From Trichaptum fuscoviolaceum (Eukaryota > Basidiomycota > Agaricomycetes > Hymenochaetales > Trichaptaceae): DNA of 64,000 bases. Location: contig CAJSYZ010000003.1 in NCBI GenBank assembly GCA_910574455.1, forward strand, positions 4,587,250 through 4,651,249, given 5' to 3'. The position numbers and the translations under genes are program-made. The stretch's first letter is position 1, and each line of letters opens with the position of its first letter. Of this stretch, positions 9,233-54,250 are shown one piece after another. The notes below the pieces were generated by a model. It had not been told where the DNA came from, did no database searches, and saw only the letters and a program-made list of their open reading frames with translations.

Positions 9233-9252
9233 GGAACATGCTTTTGACTTAT

Positions 9253-9332
9253 TGACCACCGCAGGGCTCGAACCTGCAATCTCCTGATTACTCATTTCGT
9301 AGTCAGACGCGATACCATTTCGCCAGGCGGCC
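9253..9332 (-). tRNA. tR(ACG): tRNA-Arg, anticodon ACG, with an 8-base intron
   Basis: A full cloverleaf folds on the minus strand. The acceptor stem GGCCGCC pairs with GGTGGTC (two G-U pairs). The D arm has GCG/CGC, the anticodon stem TCTGA pairs with TCAGG around loop CT-ACG-A...A, and the T arm is GCAGG-TTCGAGC-CCTGC. The internal promoters are intact: box A TGGCGAAATGG and box B GGTTCGAGCCC. The anticodon loop only closes if eight bases (AATGAGTA) after position 37 are removed, the canonical position for a nuclear tRNA intron. The mature tRNA (A34 edited to inosine) would read CGU, CGC and CGA codons. The discriminator base appears to be A. Confidence 0.9.
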
Positions 9333-10789
9333 ATACAAAATCGTGTGAAGTTTAAGAGACCAAATTGGCATTTATATATTCCAGACTTCACTGGCAAACA
9401 GTTATGTAAAGCCGCCGGAACTTCGTGAGTATAACCGCGAAGGTTTCCGAGCCGCAACACAGCTTACAGGATGCAAGAACACCTGATGATCATCGCCTCT
9501 AATATGAAGATCTGCTCATAGATCTGTCACGATGTGCCTTCTGAAGCTGTGATCTCTTGATAAGGGGAATCGGAATAATCTCCGGTCAATCTAGTCTACC
9601 TTTGGGTAATGGGATTGGCGTTCACCTGCAGCCGATCGACTTACTTGGACACTCTGATATTCAGCACATCGGGTTTATAACGAAGCGGAAGAATGTCAAT
9701 CGTAGGATCGTGGTCATGGTAACATTTGCTCAGTTTTGCATGTGCAGGGATACTTAATTTAAGATAAATACCCAAGTTCGGAAACTCTGTGAACGAGGAG
9801 TACCTTTTACAACTACAGTCATGGATCTCCTAGATTATCTTTGGCGATCGATTGTCCGACAAATTCGGACAGAGATCATAACTAGTGTGTTTGGCTTCAG
9901 GTCAGTGGTGGGCTTGTATAGTAATTGCTACATATCTGAATGCTACAAGATCCACAGGCGATCTATTTACCACGAGGCTTCCGTCGCGGATATCCCGTGC
10001 CTCGTGTCTTACTGCTTGTACGTAGGTTTATATGCATAAACTGACTCGGAGTTTGCTCATTGGTATATTATTCAAGTTGAGTTGACTGTTAGTCAATAAG
10101 AGTCATATTTAAAGTTCCATTGACGGTACTAGCCGCAGCTTCTGAACTTTTGCAGTGGCTTCACCGTGGTCGGATCATTACTGCAGCTAATCTCATTCGG
10201 AAATATTTACCAAGGGTGACAAGGAATAACAAATACCTAAGAATCCTCTCACCGCCATAGCCGAAACAGTAAAACAGAGGGCACCGATGGCTCTAGCGCT
10301 ATGATACATGTATAAGAGCTCTGAGGTTGATAACTGCCGACTCATTTGCACAGCTCGATCATCCCTCCATTCGAAGCACGACCTCATGCTCGAAATCGCC
10401 GCCCCGAGAGCCCCGATAGACCGTATCTCATTCGCGTTTATGGCCACCTTTGACTCCCATTAGTATGTCTTCTCTTTCTCTTTTATTCCCTTGTTTCATT
10501 CAATTAATATTAATTGCAAACACTGGCAGGATTGCGCGCAAGAGAAGCCAACCAGTGAGACGAGGTGTTCGGGGTACCGACCTTTCATTCAAGTTAAGGT
10601 TTTAAGGTTAAGCTCATCAAATTGTACAAATATGGCTATGTCGAGCATACAACTGAAGACACAGATATATTAAGAGGCGCGAAAGGACAACAGGATTGTA
10701 AGTCGGTCAGTCAGAAAGAATTATTAAGATGGGTACTTTAATAGCAGATATGTGCAGTTGTAGAACTGATCTGACTGCGAAAAAGAGAT
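9333..10789. other. Gene-poor spacer
   Basis: About 1.46 kb without a convincing gene on either strand. Open frames are under 90 codons and carry no family motif. No inverted or tandem repeat stood out. Confidence 0.4.
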
Positions 10790-22078: not shown

Positions 22079-22531
22079 ATGGATAACCTGCTGAAAGCAC
22101 GAAGGCAGCGCAGATTCGAAGAGGACACAAGGGACAGGAAAATCGTCGCGCCTTTAGCTCCGCGCATGCGCGATATCAAGGATTTCCCCAACTTGACCAC
22201 TCTACTAAGTGCAGTGTGCGACCAGCTTCATGGTAATCATAAATGATCCTATAAAACGAAATTTTCACGTTGATGAGATCATTACCGTGTAGCCATCCAA
22301 GCTCTTTCTCAGCAATGTGGCATGATCCATGGCGATGTGTCTCCCGCGAACATGCTCTGGTACAAGAACAAAGACGGAAAGATTACCGGAGTCTTGCTCG
22401 ATTTCGACACACCGGAAGAGGAGCGGGGGGCACCCCCGCCTCCGCCTCCAAAGACCCCATCCGAGGCCGCGCAAAGTACAGCGACTGCAACAAGCTTGCT
22501 GGCCCGCCGGCGGCTTGGCTATAAATTTTGA
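22079..22531 (+). CDS. Truncated kinase-like protein, array copy A
   Basis: Two exons (22079-22232 and 22293-22531) give about 130 residues. Exon 1 starts MDNLLKARRQRRFEEDTRDR and has the array motif as IVAPLAPRM. A phase-1 intron follows, then exon 2 AIQALSQQCGMIHGDVSPAN, the kinase catalytic loop (HGDxxxAN), and LLDFDT in place of DFG. The C-terminus is proline-rich (PPPPPPKTPSEA). HGD...N plus DFD is the C-lobe signature of fungal FunK1-type and aminoglycoside-phosphotransferase-type kinases. The Gly loop, the VAIK lysine and the alpha-C glutamate are absent, so it is not a complete kinase. It may be a remnant, a pseudokinase fragment or a small regulator. Confidence 0.65.
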
Positions 22532-22778
22532 GGATGTTTGTCATTGTTACATGTAGTTACTCATGTATAATATGTAAAGATGTAAATCGTACAAAGCTCT
22601 TTTCAAGTTATGCTTGACGAAGGATATGTCGAAGTAAGGACAAAAGCCTTTTGGGCCTGAAGACGCGAAAGTGCCGGCCCTAACTCGGAACGTGCCAGTG
22701 GGCATAATTGCGGTCTGGCTTGATGAGTACCGACCTTGTCACATACTCATTCGATCTACATAGTTTAATCACAATCTC

Positions 22779-23557
22779 ATGGCCTCGCCCAACGCAGGGA
22801 AGCGCAAAGACAGAGAAGACGACGTGATAGACGATGAAGGAGCCTCATCGAAGATGCGGGCGACGTCCTCCTCCGACGACGACGACGATTCGGACAACTG
22901 GGCAGACGCGTATGAGCAAGAGCTGTATACGTTCATGCAAGCAGACGTCGAAGTAAAAGAACTTAAGCGCAATGCTCAGGCGTTTCCCATCCCGAACTTC
23001 TCGATGACGCCGGACGCCAGCACGCTGGAGATGGCAAAGGCACTGCTGAAGAGCAGCGGAGGCAACAACAAGTATCTGAAGATGCTTGTAAGAGAGATCG
23101 AGTCGACCGTCTATCCTGATGATAAGGGAACGAAGGTCAAGGGCAAGCTGGCTCCGCGCATGGTCTCCTGGGCAGAGAGTCGAGAAGGGAGGAGGCAAAC
23201 TACGTTGAGCGAGTATGCCATGCATTCTTTTTTTGATAGCATGAAAGGTGAGCCCAATTCTTCGGTACCCACTCACTGACTTTCCTCTTACTCGTCCACC
23301 AATACTCAATGCTCCTCATGCGTCTCACAGGCTCTTACCTTTTCTCCCAAATCTGCGATCTCCTTCATGGCGATGTTTCTCCGGCGAACATGTACTGGTA
23401 TTTTGGCCAGAATGGGAAAATGGTTGGCGTTCTGAACGACTTCGACCATCATGAGATGACCATCACCGAATACTACAGTGATCTAAAGAAAAACAAAGAG
23501 GATGTGAAGAAAGAGGAGTCGGAATGCGCTACATCAATGCAGCTTGAGGTTGTTTGA
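22779..23557 (+). CDS. Truncated kinase-like protein, array copy B
   Basis: The longest array member, about 235 residues. The N-terminus (1-60) is acidic and low-complexity (KRKDREDDVIDDEG, SSSDDDDDSDNW). A mixed segment without known motif follows, then the array motif VKGKLAPRMVSWAE at about residue 122. The phase-1 intron lies after SFFDSMK, and exon 2 begins GSYLFSQICDLLHGDVSPAN, giving the HGD catalytic loop, then GVLNDFDHH. The tail is Lys/Glu-rich (LKKNKEDVKKEESE). As in the other copies, no N-lobe nucleotide-binding elements can be found. It is in the same orientation as copy A, 247 bases downstream. An intact reading frame with correct splice signals suggests expression. Confidence 0.7.
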
Positions 23558-23706
23558 GGGCGCTTAGGCTACCTATTGCGCAACATGCATCCCGTATGTC
23601 TGTCTCTTTCACAGAAGCATGTTACGTTGTACATCTATATTTACATCAAGCTAAGACTCGGAGGACTGTCCTCCATGTACCAATATATACTGATACAGCA
23701 ATCTTG

Positions 23707-24243
23707 TTATGGATCACTTCTGCCTTGGTTCTCCAGTTCGCCTCCTCCGACAGCACTGATAGCAACGACTTCAGCCTTCGCCTTCGGACTCTCCTGCGGT
23801 ACGTCATTCTCGCGGATATCTTGTGGTCGATGATGGTCGAAGTCATTCAGAACGCCTCTTGCCTTCCCTTCCTTGTTTCTGAACCAAAGACAGTTGGCGG
23901 GCGCGATATCGCCATGTAAGATGCCGCATATGCTGTACAGCGCGTGCGATGCTGTCGTTCACGAGCACAACAACATATGTTACAAATAAATTTGTGCCCG
24001 ATAATCGATTAACATCATCCCCTGCTTCATGCGACCTTGTTACACAAACTCACAGTACACATAATCAACAAAGACATTCACGTCCGGTCCCTTCGCGTCA
24101 CCTTGAAGACGACCAAGGGTTGACAAGCGAGGAGCTAGTTGCGCTTTGATCTTTCGTTCATCTTCGTTTTCGACCCCTCGGGAGGATTCTGTTTGGAGGA
24201 TAGACTGAGGACGAGTGGAAATAGGAAGATAAACGCGTAACAT
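23707..24243 (-). CDS. Truncated kinase-like protein, array copy C
   Basis: Two exons. Exon 1 (from 24243) reads MLRVYLPISTRPQSILQTES, then ERKIKAQLAPRLSTLG. The phase-1 intron lies after VDYVY, and exon 2 reads SSHALYSICGILHGDIAPAN, then CLWFRNKEGKARGVLNDFDH. The HGD loop and DFD are present, with no N-lobe. The tail RPQDIRENDVPQES is followed by a Lys/Gly-rich end; stop TAA at 23707-23709. It is the closest relative of copy D immediately upstream (same exon-1 leader and very similar exon 2), so the two are recent tandem duplicates. Copy B points towards it with a 149-base gap. Confidence 0.65.
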
Positions 24244-24477
24244 GATAGTGGCAGTCAGAAAGAGAAGCTCAACACGCTTGAGAGCCTCAAGTCAAAAATT
24301 AGGGCAGGCATATGCATGTACACGTAGAATGAGTAACATGTATAGTACAGTACCAAACACACGAGCTAGGGGTTCAATGGATAATATGGACTAGTACTAT
24401 GAAAGATGATGCCAGAGACGTACGTAGGGTTTTTATGCAGCATAAGCACTCTCCCAGCCTTCCTTCAAAGCGTATCA

Positions 24478-24950
24478 TCAGTCCAGCGACGCAACCACCT
24501 CGTCGTGGCTCATCTCGACATCATTCTTGCGGATATCTTGTGGTCGATGATGGTCGAAGTCATTCAAGACGCCGATTGCATGCCCGTTCTTGCCTCTGAA
24601 CCAGAGACAGTTGGCGGGTGCGATATCGCCATGTAAGATCGGTACCGCATTTGCTGTACAGCGCGTGTGAGGCTGTCATTCGCCAGCACAGGCATATATG
24701 GTGTAATTTGTGCCCGATATTGCCAGTGATAAACGCCAGGCGACTTTCAGACTCAAGTTGCAAACTCACCGAGCAGATAATAAAAAAAGATAACAAGGTC
24801 AGGTCCTTTCGCGTCAAGACTACCGATGGACGCCATGCGAGGAGCTAGCTGTGCTTTGATCTTCTGTTCATCATTGGCTTTGACTCCTCGGAGGGATTGC
24901 GTTTGTAGGATAAACCGAGGAGTGGAGTTGGGAAGGCTAGTTTGTAACAT
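24478..24950 (-). pseudogene. Truncated kinase-like gene, array copy D, with 4-base insertion
   Basis: Near-duplicate of copy C: exon 1 MLQTSLPNSTPRFILQTQSL, then EQKIKAQLAPRMASIG. Relative to copy C, exon 2 has four extra bases (about 24640-24643) between CG- and -ILHGD. With the ancestral 3' splice site, translation therefore leaves the HGD frame and ends ...QERACNRRLE. The HGDIAPAN...NDFDHH frame itself is still open to TGA at 24478-24480 and ends DVEMSHDEVVASLD. A second CAG acceptor 19 bases further in would restore that frame, so it may still be expressed as a slightly shorter protein. It is called a pseudogene provisionally. Confidence 0.55.
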
Positions 24951-25171
24951 AGTAGTGGTAGTCGGAAAGACGAGCACGACGTTGACTTAGAAGGCGAGCT
25001 CAAATTAGGGCCGGTATATAGTATAGTAAGTAATAGTACATAGTGCACAGCACATCAGGAATTCATGTTACAGAATTGGATCCTATCGAATAGCATGAGA
25101 AGCATCGTAGGAGGCGTACGTGAGCTTGTTGCAGCAGAAGTAGTCTCCCAGCCATCCTGTCCATCAAGCGA

Positions 25172-25646
25172 TCAGTCCAGCGACGCAACCACATCGTCGT
25201 GGCTCATCTCGACATCTGCATCTCCCGATGCCTTTTTGCTTGACTCCGCTTCCTTCTTAGAGCCCCAATCGATGTGTCGCCCCGCAAACACCATACCGTC
25301 AAAGTCGTTGAGGACGCCGACGGTGGTGTGTTTGTCCTTCTTGTAGTAGAGGACGTTTGCTAACGAGACGTCACCATGGGTCATGTCGCATTTGCAGGTC
25401 AGAACTTGGAGCGCTGTCCATCGAGAGGCGGAGCCGCTTCAGCTAAGTGTGGCACACCGGCACAGAAGGAGGAGGCGTACCCACTGTCGCATCGCTCATA
25501 ATACCCAGGACGTCCGCCAGCTTCCTCTGTTTACCAATGGTCACCATGCGCGGTGCGAGCTGCGCCTTGATCCGTCTAACCTTTGCATCAGCGGGAGGGC
25601 TTCTTTCTATCGCTGGGATATTCGGAAAAGGGTTTGGCTCGAACAT
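25172..25646 (-). CDS. Truncated kinase-like protein, array copy E
   Basis: Exon 1 starts MFEPNPFPNIPAIERSPPAD and has the array motif RRIKAQLAPRMVTIG. After ...SDATV a phase-1 GTACGC intron leads to exon 2 ALQVLTCKCDMTHGDVSLAN, then VLYYKKDKHTTVGVLNDFDG. The loop is HGDVSLAN (Leu instead of Pro) and DFD lacks the following His pair. The C-terminus DVEMSHDDVVASLD is almost the same as that of copy D, showing a shared origin of their 3' ends. No N-lobe is visible. It is divergent from copy F, starts 109 bases apart. Confidence 0.62.
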
Positions 25647-25755
25647 GCTTGAGTGCTGCAATTGCAACTCGAGCGCATGAAGGGGCGAAGGTGTGTCGCG
25701 TCAGCGCCTCCCCTAAACAGCAAGGCATGGCACTCGCCCCACCACCGGGCATCCC

Positions 25756-26313
25756 ATGCACAAACGCTCACGTACATACACAATGGGCTCATCTGATGAG
25801 GACGATCACAGCTCAGGCGATCAGGTTGAGGACGGCGACGGCGACGATGCCCCCAACGCCCTAGCCAACGCCGACGCGAAGGTCCCATTCGAGGACACCC
25901 CGTCCGAAGCGCCGCTGTCGACCACGAGCACCTGGGCGGAGGACAGCGAGCTGCGGCCCGGGCTGAACAAGGTGTCCGTCGTGGACAAGGGCTGGAAAGT
26001 CAAGGCCAAGCTCGCACCGCGCATGTCCTCCCTGGCAGAGGGCACAGACGACGAAGACGGTCTTGCTCATTCGGGAATGCCTGGAGCTATCCAGGGTAAG
26101 CCGTGCATTCGTACTCTACCACAAACTGTTACACCAGCTCATCGTGCTCTCGCTCCAGCTACGCATGCGTTCTTCAGTATTTGTGGGCTCACTCATGGCG
26201 ACATCTCGCCAGCTAATATCTGTTTCTATTACGACAACGAAGGAAATATGGTCGGCGTCATCAATGACTTTGATCACCACCGGGCAGAGGAGATCCGACC
26301 ACACGCACGATAG
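25756..26313 (+). CDS. Truncated kinase-like protein, array copy F
   Basis: Starts MHKRSRTYTMGSSDEDDHSS, with a strongly acidic, Asp/Gly/Ala-rich N-terminus (about residues 10-60). The array motif is WKVKAKLAPRMSSLAEG. The intron (GTAAGC...CCAG, phase 1 after GAIQ) contains no stop, so the unspliced frame is open throughout; the family pattern shows that it should be removed. Exon 2 begins ATHAFFSICGLTHGDISPAN, then ICFYYDNEGNMVGVINDFDH, with end EEIRPHAR. The HGD loop and DFD are present and the N-lobe is missing. ATG at 25783 (MGSSDEDD) is an equally good start. Confidence 0.66.
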   Translation: MHKRSRTYTMGSSDEDDHSSGDQVEDGDGDDAPNALANADAKVPFEDTPSEAPLSTTSTWAEDSELRPGLNKVSVVDKGWKVKAKLAPRMSSLAEGTDDEDGLAHSGMPGAIQGKPCIRTLPQTVTPAHRALAPATHAFFSICGLTHGDISPANICFYYDNEGNMVGVINDFDHHRAEEIRPHAR

Positions 26314-28149: not shown

Positions 28150-29145
28150 GACTTGAATTGAGCAAGGCTCCAACCCCAGCTCCCGGCGTCCGAACGCTCA
28201 GGATCTTGCATCCACCCACCGTGTACGAACTACAATGTCACATCCATGAAGCTGACATTGTCGGCTGACACGACTAGGCTGGAGTGAGAAGAAGGCCTTT
28301 TGAAAGCAAGCAGCGCCGGTAGCCCTCAGTGTGACACTGTCTTTGTCCGCCCACTCTTCGACGTGCGAAACACAGTGAGGGTGGGAGACAACACCGAAGT
28401 CTGATTCCTGCTTGCCTGGTCGGGGATGGTCTACGATGAGAGCCCTCCGTCGGCCCTACGCCACCCTCCCGGCGGAGATGTGGATTTAGGATGGGTCGAG
28501 GCCAAAAGCACTGGCAGGCGTGCACGTACTAAACGACTGTGGATATCATCTTCCACCTCGAACACCGTCTCGATGTCGAGATCACGGTGGCCATAAGCCG
28601 CAATGGATCACCAGTGGATCGAATTAGGTCGTACGAGTCGTCGTGGTGGTCGGATCCAAGGAGAGGTGGGCGGCGAGAACCGCTACTTATACTCTTGGAT
28701 TTCGATATAGGCGGCTGACAAGTGGCGAGCATAGGTCAGACTCTGAGACTCCGAGACCGGTCTGCGACGATTCAGTGTTAGACTGGGAGGCTAGGAAGTA
28801 GTCCGCCCCTGATATCCATATACTGTGAATAGCTAGTCGGTTTGCATGCACATCGTCCTCTGGCTCATTATCGCGATGGGCACACAAGTCATCATAGCAA
28901 GACGGTCGGCGATGCGTTACTGGAGGTAATGCCAAAGCCATGGCGAGCATGAGACGCCGGTGTCAGATACATTCAGTCCTCACCTCATCGCCGACAACCC
29001 GGATCACGTCGTAAACACATACCTGAGATTCGTGTGCATTCCAGTAAGCGTTGCATATGATGAGATTATACACTTTATAGACACATTCCGGCACCTATTG
29101 ACTTCCAGCATACTTCTGAAACTTATCTATTCACGAATCCAAGCT
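28150..29145. repeat. Duplicated unassigned block, copy 1
   Basis: About 1 kb that matches 30940-32399 over its whole length once the inserted element in copy 2 is removed. Shared stretches include CTTGCATCCACCCA, GACAACACCGAAG, GAGAGCCCTCCGTC and CATTCCGGCACCTAT. The match runs directly into the 3' end of the BTB gene. Neither copy keeps an open frame of useful length, so it is either non-coding or a decayed gene. Confidence 0.7.
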
Positions 29146-52162: not shown

Positions 52163-54250
52163 TCACGCGGGGGTTTCACTAACAGTGCGGCCTTTTTCGC
52201 CCACTTTGACATACGGTTTCGGTTCGGCCTGCATCTCATACCAAAAGCTGGGAAGAATTTGAGTAATTTGCTCGCAATACCAGAAGATCTCGTCGGTTTG
52301 TCGCTTCTCGGGGGTCAGACCTTCTTCACCAACGTGGGTGTGCATTTGCCAGGACCGATCAGGAACAACCTGCACAAATGTCCCTCCGAGATTCATGTTC
52401 ACGATGAGGGTCTCCGCAGCTTTCGGAAGGAGATAGAGAACGATGTCATCTACCCTCGGATCATGCCTGGGTAGGTTTACGTCCACGCTATCTGCGGCCT
52501 TCTCGCTGTACGGGTCTTCAAGGAGCTCTGGGGCTTGAATCGCCGCGCGATAATTCGCCTTGCGATTTGAACCGAAAAACTTCTTGTGAGATGAGAGAAC
52601 CACCTTCGCAAACATACTCAGGTCAACAGTCTTTCTGCTATCGGCAGGCATTGTCACGCTTTTGATATACCGAGTCGACCTTTCGACATAGCCCACTTTG
52701 TGTGACAGAGGCAATGTTGTCGGGCCCATAAGAGTCATGAGGAAGTACTCTGGGACAGTCCAAACAGCCATCGAAGCTGGCTGCGCCCACGGATTGTCCA
52801 TTGCTGTGTCAGCAGCTTGACCTGCACCTTCTCCGAGATTATCTGCAGATGCTGTGTCGAGCGCATCGGACGTGCTGCCCCACGCATCTCCAATACTATC
52901 CCCATGGTCTCCGGACCCCCACACGTCAAGATTCGACTTATCTGGACTGCAGGCTGATTCTTCCGCGGGCAGGCCAGGCGGCTGGAGAGCGTCAGATCCA
53001 CTCATATCGAGAACTTTGTTCTCCTCCGATAGTTTCTCGAGACCAGAATTCAGATCACGCCAGGGGTTGGGAATTTGGCTCCCGTAAAGGGCTTTGAAGC
53101 AATTGGAAAGTTCGTCCGGAACAGCCGAGCCTATAACTTGCGTCTGAGGAAGCTCCTCTTTCGCTTTCTCAACGATAGCGATGGCCTGAGGGAGTTTGTC
53201 CTTCAGCTCCGGGAGTGCTTGATTGCGAATGATGAAATTCAGAAAGAATAACACGACGCGAGGACAATCACGAATTGCTACTTTGTCCCTGGAAGGAGAT
53301 CGTGTGGATGTAAGCACATTTATACTTCTGGGACAACACAGGGTCTCACCAGAGCATGCCGCGGACGCGGAAGTATGAAGAGAAGAATATCTTCATCGAG
53401 CGCATCGGGTTTTCCAAAAATCTCTCCATGCGACTTTCTTTTGTCTGAAGCTCTCTAGCCTTTTCCTCCTCAGTGGGTTCAGCTGTATCTTTGTATTTGA
53501 CGATATCATGTTGAGAAAGATCGAAGGCCTGAATAGCAACAGGTTGTGCAGCCTGCGAGGCAATCTCGCCCCCCTCTGCACACCTCTGCACGCCATCATC
53601 GCTTTCAACGTCGGATACCGAATCATCGTCATCGTCACATGCGTTGAACTGCCTTGTTCCGCCACCGATTATACCGGTAAAGACCTGGAACTATTAACAA
53701 AGTCAAAATTTATTTTCTGAAGCATAATAATTAATGAGCGAACCATATCCCATAGTTCTTCTAAGGATCTTTCCCCTGTCATGCGAGGAGGCCAAGTACG
53801 TTGTTTTCGAAAATCTGCGGCTACGGATGTCAGACGGTCCGTCATGTGCAACTTTCTTCGTTGACGAGAAGAAATCAGTGCTTCTACTGACTCTTATGAG
53901 CGGAACACGAACTTATCATATTTGAAGTTACTCCTCAGATCCTCTCCCTCCGCCCAATCTTCCCACCACGGCTTCCTCTTTACTATTTCCCCTCCTGCCG
54001 TTTTCTGAGTCTTTCGCTTCTTCTTGGGCCGTGCCTCGCCATCGTGTGTGACGAGCAATTGAACGGTGGGAATATTTTCGCCGTCGAGTTCCACCTCATC
54101 GTCCATCACAACCTGGATCCCCGACGGTTTGAAGTCCTTGAACGGAATGATGTTAACACCGTGAGGTGGATTAGGGAAAGGAGGCCATTTATAGTACGGA
54201 ACCCCCTTGTCGTCGTATTCCACGAGTGCTCCGGGCACAGCAGGCTCCAT
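52163..54250 (-). CDS. Probable Argonaute siRNA chaperone (ARC) subunit Arb1 homologue
   Basis: In fission yeast Arb1 binds Argonaute and helps load siRNA for heterochromatin silencing. The start MEPAVPGALVEYDDKGVPYY is followed by a basic patch RPKKKRKTQKT (about residues 76-86) and WWEDWAEGEDL. DRLTSVAADFRKQRTWPPRM and SLEELWDM|FQVFTGIIGG come next, then an acidic stretch (ACDDDDDSVSDVESDDG), MRSMKIFFSSYFRVRGMLW and CPRVVLFFLNFIIRNQALPE. A Gly/Asp/Ser-rich linker leads to EYFLMTLMGPTTLPLSHKVG, YVERSTRYI and DEIFWYCEQITQILPSFWYE. The FFxxYFRxRGMxW and FFLxFIIRN blocks and the PTTLPLSHxxGxVERSTR block are what I associate with Arb1-domain proteins. Five or so exons. The alternative is an uncharacterised fungal family. 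Confidence 0.6.

Follow-up and report, generated by a model that had tools for sequence, protein, structure and literature searches.

A candidate family of short FunK1-derived genes retaining part of a kinase catalytic centre in the mushroom Trichaptum fuscoviolaceum

Does a gene that carries the catalytic centre of a kinase and little else of the kinase fold belong to a working family, or is it the wreckage of a larger gene? The question is raised by a 64-kb window (the whole stretch of DNA analyzed here) comprising positions 4587250-4651249 of contig C3 in the 59.09-Mb, 12-contig genome of Trichaptum fuscoviolaceum (Hymenochaetales), a wood-decay mushroom. Between window positions 22079 and 26313 lie six two-exon genes on mixed strands, here termed minis A to F, with motifs of the FunK1 kinases (Pkinase_fungal, PF17667), a fungus-specific family expanded in mushrooms. 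Two papers describe FunK1 as large and confined to fungi, with no established function (PMC3203195, PMC3591445). We are confident that the minis constitute a real family that has been maintained. Judging by its relatives in other fungi, this family is more likely to be old than to result from random wreckage; for its mode of action we offer a tentative proposal.

The six genes and their shared motifs had been put forward in a sequence-only reading of the window, and both a motif scan and spliced gene models confirm them. In the models, which were built without RNA, GT..AG splice sites were picked by eye; the predicted introns of all six minis are 60-116 nucleotides (nt) long, in phase 1 and at one homologous position. 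Coordinates are those of the window:

22079..22531, plus strand: mini gene A, exons 22079-22232 and 22293-22531, 130 amino acids; highest PF17667 score among the six.
22779..23557, plus strand: mini gene B, exons 22779-23247 and 23331-23557, 231 amino acids; long acidic N-terminal extension; relatives P0001, P0003 and P0026.
23707..24243, minus strand: mini gene C, exons 24054-24243 and 23707-23951, 144 amino acids; LAPRL instead of LAPRM.
24478..24950, minus strand: mini gene D, exon 1 24770-24950 and, by an alternative acceptor, exon 2 24478-24653, 118 amino acids; probably damaged in this strain.
25172..25646, minus strand: mini gene E, exons 25481-25646 and 25172-25413, 135 amino acids; relatives P0004 and P0009.
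25783..26313, plus strand: mini gene F, exons 25783-26095 and 26159-26313, 155 amino acids; acidic N-terminus; close relative P0002.

A six-frame scan of the window recovers six LAPR(M/L), six HGD[VI][SA]xAN and six (N/L)DFD motifs, forming sets that all lie in 22154-26274, together with one stray DFD outside the mini sets at 28689-28706. In the alignment of the six minis LAPR, HGD, AN, GV and DFD are invariant. The first motif had been described as (V/I)KA(K/Q)LAPRM; its LAPR part holds in every copy, and the remainder is broader than that (IVAPLAPRM in A, VKGKLAPRM in B, a final L in C). All six copies have the Asp and Asn of the catalytic loop and the Asp of DFD; in C and D the catalytic-loop Ser is replaced by Ala, and DFD is extended to DFDHH in B, C, D and F, the HH being missing from A and E.

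What the minis have kept is predicted to run roughly from the hinge to DFD, with the N-lobe and everything past DFD lost. The absence of an N-lobe ahead of the motifs, noted from the sequence alone, holds up: intergenic gaps between adjacent minis measure just 247, 149, 234, 221 and 136 bp, and none of the 117 PF17667 matches in the genome falls in the window, in a non-exhaustive search of single exons that scored 107 of 163 candidates and likewise did not list the minis' own exons. The idea that only the catalytic loop and DFD remain needs amendment at both ends. In the alignment the LAPRM motif occupies the beta-5/hinge position of longer kinases (secondary-structure names follow general kinase knowledge), so that this segment is also kept; in the other direction, the minis stop soon after DFD, with neither an activation segment nor the remaining C-lobe. 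The GTxPFMA-type activation segment found in longer FunK1 loci ([GS]T, one or two residues, [FY][MI]A) is not matched anywhere in the six frames of the window.

The suggested origin from a FunK1-type kinase is upheld by the profile score of A and by gene structure. Mini A matches PF17667 at 37.2 bits (cut-off 24.1) over model positions 257-339 of 387, followed by P0004 (24.1), E (23.1, positions 277-342), C (20.9, positions 290-339) and F (13.8); B, D, P0001, P0003 and P0009 gave no PF17667 match in the profile search. The matches of the minis start at model position 257 or beyond, past the N-lobe region of the ATP (adenosine triphosphate)-binding lysine. The APH phosphotransferase profile PF01636 matches A alone, at 23.6 bits (cut-off 23.2), well under its PF17667 score. 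In FunK1 loci L036-L041 of the same genome, with splice sites again read by eye, the exon preceding the catalytic loop ends in phase 1 some 10-12 residues ahead of HRD/HGD, as it does in the minis. This shared intron position argues that the minis derive from FunK1, from which their exon boundary would seem to be inherited.

The genome holds at least 117 PF17667 matches, with dense FunK1 arrays at C3 1.79-1.83, C6 2.45-2.52, C7 2.46-2.78, C8 3.04-3.10, C10 2.15-2.23 and C12 0.44-0.47 Mb. In one locus (L038, C12:466000-472000, minus strand) the catalytic-loop exon of a FunK1 copy continues straight into what resembles the upstream part of a second copy; unequal recombination may have produced a chimera here. 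Among the best candidates scored, six exon or part-protein queries returned only the six minis and FunK1 places. An apparent short mini at C10:2194851 was rejected, as it lies within a longer PF17667 match containing three stops. Carriage of minis by viruses was also considered: 52 pattern matches in viral contigs included no relatives.

Whether the minis represent one lineage or several independent truncations was addressed with a maximum-likelihood tree of 19 rows and 71 columns, rooted at the midpoint for drawing only. It contains nine minis (A, B, C, E, F, P0003, P0004, P0026 and P0027) and a sample of ten longer FunK1 rows, six from this genome and four named proteins, trimmed by eye to the homologous segment; kept out were D (damaged), P0009 (intron read-through), P0001 (a near-copy of B), shorter proteins and the broken FunK1 copy in L038. 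Support for the branch separating the nine minis from the ten longer FunK1s is 99/95; it changes to 98/94 once L040, with its long branch, is left out, and to 95/92 if the columns for LAPRM, Cys and AN are dropped as well. Two features follow the same division: LAP[RK][ML] occurs in 9/9 minis against 0/10 longer rows, as does a Cys four residues ahead of HGD (9/9 against 0/10, five of the ten having a gap there). Because they fall together against the longer kinases, the minis are, by this tree, one group and not independent wrecks. Several inner branches are without resolution. Among the inner groups, A joins P0027 with modest support (83/74), P0004 pairs with E (98/97), and P0003 and P0026 fall with B (99/99), from which it appears that the A, B and E types split before this species arose.

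Protein searches against other assemblies yielded 30 proteins of mini type along with five longer FunK1s; all six proteins of the final search had been found already. Besides close relatives there are more distant ones (P0003, P0004, P0009, P0026), and P0027 is a free-standing short protein of 186 amino acids (hypothetical protein DFH11DRAFT_1569469) from Phellopilus nigrolimitatus, also of the Hymenochaetales. Among relatives covering each stretch in frame, LAP[RK]M is present in 20/20, the catalytic Asp and Asn and DFD in 15/15, the Cys in 11/11 and the HGD His in 14/15. This retention, like that in the six copies, makes the label "pseudokinase-like", which the sequence-only reading had offered as an example, a poor fit in one respect; its broader claim of a separate mini-family rather than random decay is sustained by the single tree group, the relatives in other fungi and, with exceptions, sequence constraint.

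Several relatives also bear on the predicted introns. In P0003 and P0004, both free-standing short proteins, the exons are joined without the intron precisely where the junctions were predicted; the two therefore probably come from spliced RNA, the alternatives being intron loss or intron-aware annotation. P0001, P0002, P0009 and P0026 read through the intron. In P0001 the read-through insert is 66 nt long against 83 nt for the intron of B, a difference of 17 nt that is not divisible by 3 and that leaves both exons in frame, which is what removal of the intron would predict.

Constraint was analyzed by comparing identical residues in the core, from the catalytic loop to DFD, with those in the N-terminus and tail; comparisons of F with P0012, P0016, P0018 and P0023 were set aside for the core, because those sequences leave frame at the intron. 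The core is better preserved between B and P0003 (27/31 against 68/146; p=4e-5) and between B and P0026 (24/31 against 31/116; p=4e-7), in E and P0009 with the hinge included (30/39 against 24/83 elsewhere), and in A and P0027 (19/30 against 4/20 in the N-terminus and 6/35 in the tail). The ratio of nonsynonymous to synonymous substitution rates (dN/dS), proposed as a check between copies, was usable for C and D, and came to 0.47 over 100 codons (p=0.015) and 0.29 in the exon-2 core (p=0.04), with uncorrected p values and region-wise alignment; an automatic alignment of the same pair gave dN 0.30 and dS 0.55. Distant paralogues were saturated (dS of at least 1.6 or undefined) and left unused. 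Constraint on the core is thus supported in most comparisons, with exceptions.

Those exceptions, and several other observations, weigh against a maintained and functioning family. Between E and P0004 the core (21/31) is no better kept than the N-terminus (19/24) or the tail (27/37), the differences between B and P0001 are spread evenly, and exon 1 of C and D taken alone has a dN/dS of 0.59 (p=0.22), not separable from neutral. P0011 has LGD in place of HGD. In P0029, a B-type protein of another assembly, the tail is frameshifted after DFDHH, so the B tail tolerates change. Structure prediction yielded weak models, with AlphaFold2 mean predicted local distance difference test (pLDDT) values of 59.7 and 55.0, and a Foldseek fold search of the PDB gave no match at E<=0.001; when the family profile was compared with PDB sequences, RIO3 ranked first, with a short and weak match over the catalytic-loop region (E=0.0019). 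A fragment without alpha-F may fail to fold.

Mini D is a further point on this side. With the acceptor that matches C, its exon 2 (from 24672) is out of frame, giving 97 amino acids in which the HGD and DFD motifs are lost; by-eye comparison places the shift in 4 nt that D has in excess of C. An acceptor 19 nt further on restores the motifs to frame, but the end of alpha-E and the Cys are lost. As D-type sequence without the shift is found in other assemblies (P0005 and, judged from its translation, P0015), D was probably damaged only recently, in this strain. The five remaining copies are intact, in agreement with the count first reported. Two regions are shared, or may be shared, between neighbouring genes:

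24477..24522 (D) and 25171-25216 (E): common 3' end of D and E, a 46-nt match of 98% in genes otherwise diverged, perhaps through partial conversion or duplication.
25647..25782: 136-bp gap separating E and F, measured from start codon to start codon of this divergent pair; a possible shared promoter.

How might such a fragment act? In kinase structures the retained part would line the ATP cleft, the lost parts being the N-lobe and the substrate side. We propose that an ancestor derived from FunK1 lost everything ahead of beta-5/hinge and everything past DFD, retaining the phase-1 intron and the C-lobe pieces of the ATP cleft (hinge, alpha-E, catalytic loop, beta-7/beta-8 and DFD), and that the six genes would be a local expansion of this old mini-family. 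Having no N-lobe, substrate lobe or activation segment, a lone mini should not be a working protein kinase. Its mode of action would instead, read most simply, be non-enzymatic: the fragment may offer half of an ATP site to another protein, with a full-length FunK1 the most plausible partner, and would compete with that kinase or prop it up, the variable N- and C-terminal extensions setting the choice of partner. We infer in addition that the minis are expressed in this fungus, fold, engage a partner and have a regulatory role. The partner or competitor mechanism by itself is possible but doubtful; an old FunK1-derived mini-family acting as a non-enzymatic module, taken as a whole, is the best explanation that we can give, though we hold it with somewhat less than even confidence.

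In a bolder reading, the minis could be a gene family under selection that dates back at least to the divergence of Trichaptum and Phellopilus and that still does chemistry, or binds Mg-nucleotide, by pairing with the N-lobe of another protein or with itself, which we deem unlikely. A split kinase complemented in trans, in which the catalytic half (Asp, Asn, DFD) comes from a mini and the N-lobe from a second protein, the two together making a working enzyme, would account for residues that a pure decoy would not obviously need and that the copies and covering relatives keep throughout; it is quite improbable, given that the minis have no activation or substrate-binding segment and that no N-lobe-only partner was found, no dedicated search having been made for one. 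Loci at C11:260 kb and C3:1.38 Mb, considered as N-terminal-only FunK1 genes, were rejected, as catalytic-loop sequence adjoins both.

Equally improbable in our estimation is a repurposing of the minis as small metal- or phosphate-binding proteins, in which the Cys, the His and Asp of HGD and the Asp and His of DFDHH would together make up a new site with no tie to kinase signalling. The Cys sets the minis apart in the tree and is present in all the relatives reaching it, and four copies carry DFDHH; A and E, however, do without HH, P0011 has no HGD His, D read through its alternative acceptor has no Cys, and the site has no confident structure behind it.

Decay offers another history, in which one captured FunK1 fragment was duplicated locally and drifted without function. 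The frameshift of D with its natural acceptor, exon 1 of C and D with its dN/dS not separable from neutral, the lack of extra core conservation in E and P0004, the P0029 tail and the damaged FunK1 copies elsewhere in this genome would all suit it. Set against these are the single group that includes a Phellopilus relative, five intact copies with the motif set retained in relatives, cores well above their flanks in B/P0003, B/P0026 and E/P0009, and an intron whose length changed with both exon frames intact; we regard drifting relics as very unlikely. Least credible of all, because of the gap sizes and the motif scans, is that the minis belong to larger kinases and that the gene models missed the remaining exons: full-length FunK1s here do start with very long 5' exons, and an intron seems to follow DFD in some (split PF17667 matches), but the genes are packed on mixed strands, with room only upstream of A and downstream of F, the single-exon search listed no PF17667 match in the window and the motif scan no activation segment, and P0003, P0004 and the Phellopilus protein are free-standing short proteins.

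Elsewhere in the window, an open frame on the minus strand (52166-53392) matches Arb1, an Argonaute small interfering RNA chaperone subunit, at 29.8 bits (cut-off 25), and a transfer RNA-like gene with a 4-base anticodon call and no assignment lies at 9252-9333, minus strand. A scan for bacterial-type promoters and terminators stayed near shuffle level and is uninformative for a fungus.

A FunK1-derived mini-family resembles several known systems without coinciding with any. Pseudokinases usually retain the whole fold and lose catalytic residues by substitution; the minis are likewise kinase-derived and probably inactive alone, yet their fold is cut down and the N-lobe lysine is gone while the catalytic-loop and DFD residues stay. 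With FunK1 itself they have in common the catalytic loop preceded by a phase-1 intron, the hinge segment and DFD; they differ in having no upstream domain, N-lobe, GTxPFMA-type segment or post-DFD C-lobe, and in the LAPRM hinge and Cys that are missing from the ten longer rows. Like microProteins and dominant-negative single-module derivatives, they are short stand-alone derivatives of a larger signalling protein, but the module retained is an enzyme half-site and not an established dimerisation domain. They have no canonical activation segment, as is the case for RIO kinases, which supplied the best PDB sequence match; RIO proteins, in contrast, have an N-lobe. Among the matches listed in a search of open-access literature, covering titles and abstract starts with most subscription journals outside its scope, there was no account of FunK1 proteins lacking the N-lobe, and the "truncated" kinase of PMC6001611 is a copy of the TOR kinase.

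A conserved mini that holds the catalytic centre with most of the kinase gone would show which part of FunK1 has separable value, and the minis provide a small, testable handle on FunK1 function. If half of a C-lobe with the full Asp-Asn-Asp set does work by pairing, it would rank as an exceptionally small functional unit of kinase origin on which selection acts. The locus is also a warning that genes annotated as "kinase fragments" in mushrooms can form real families.

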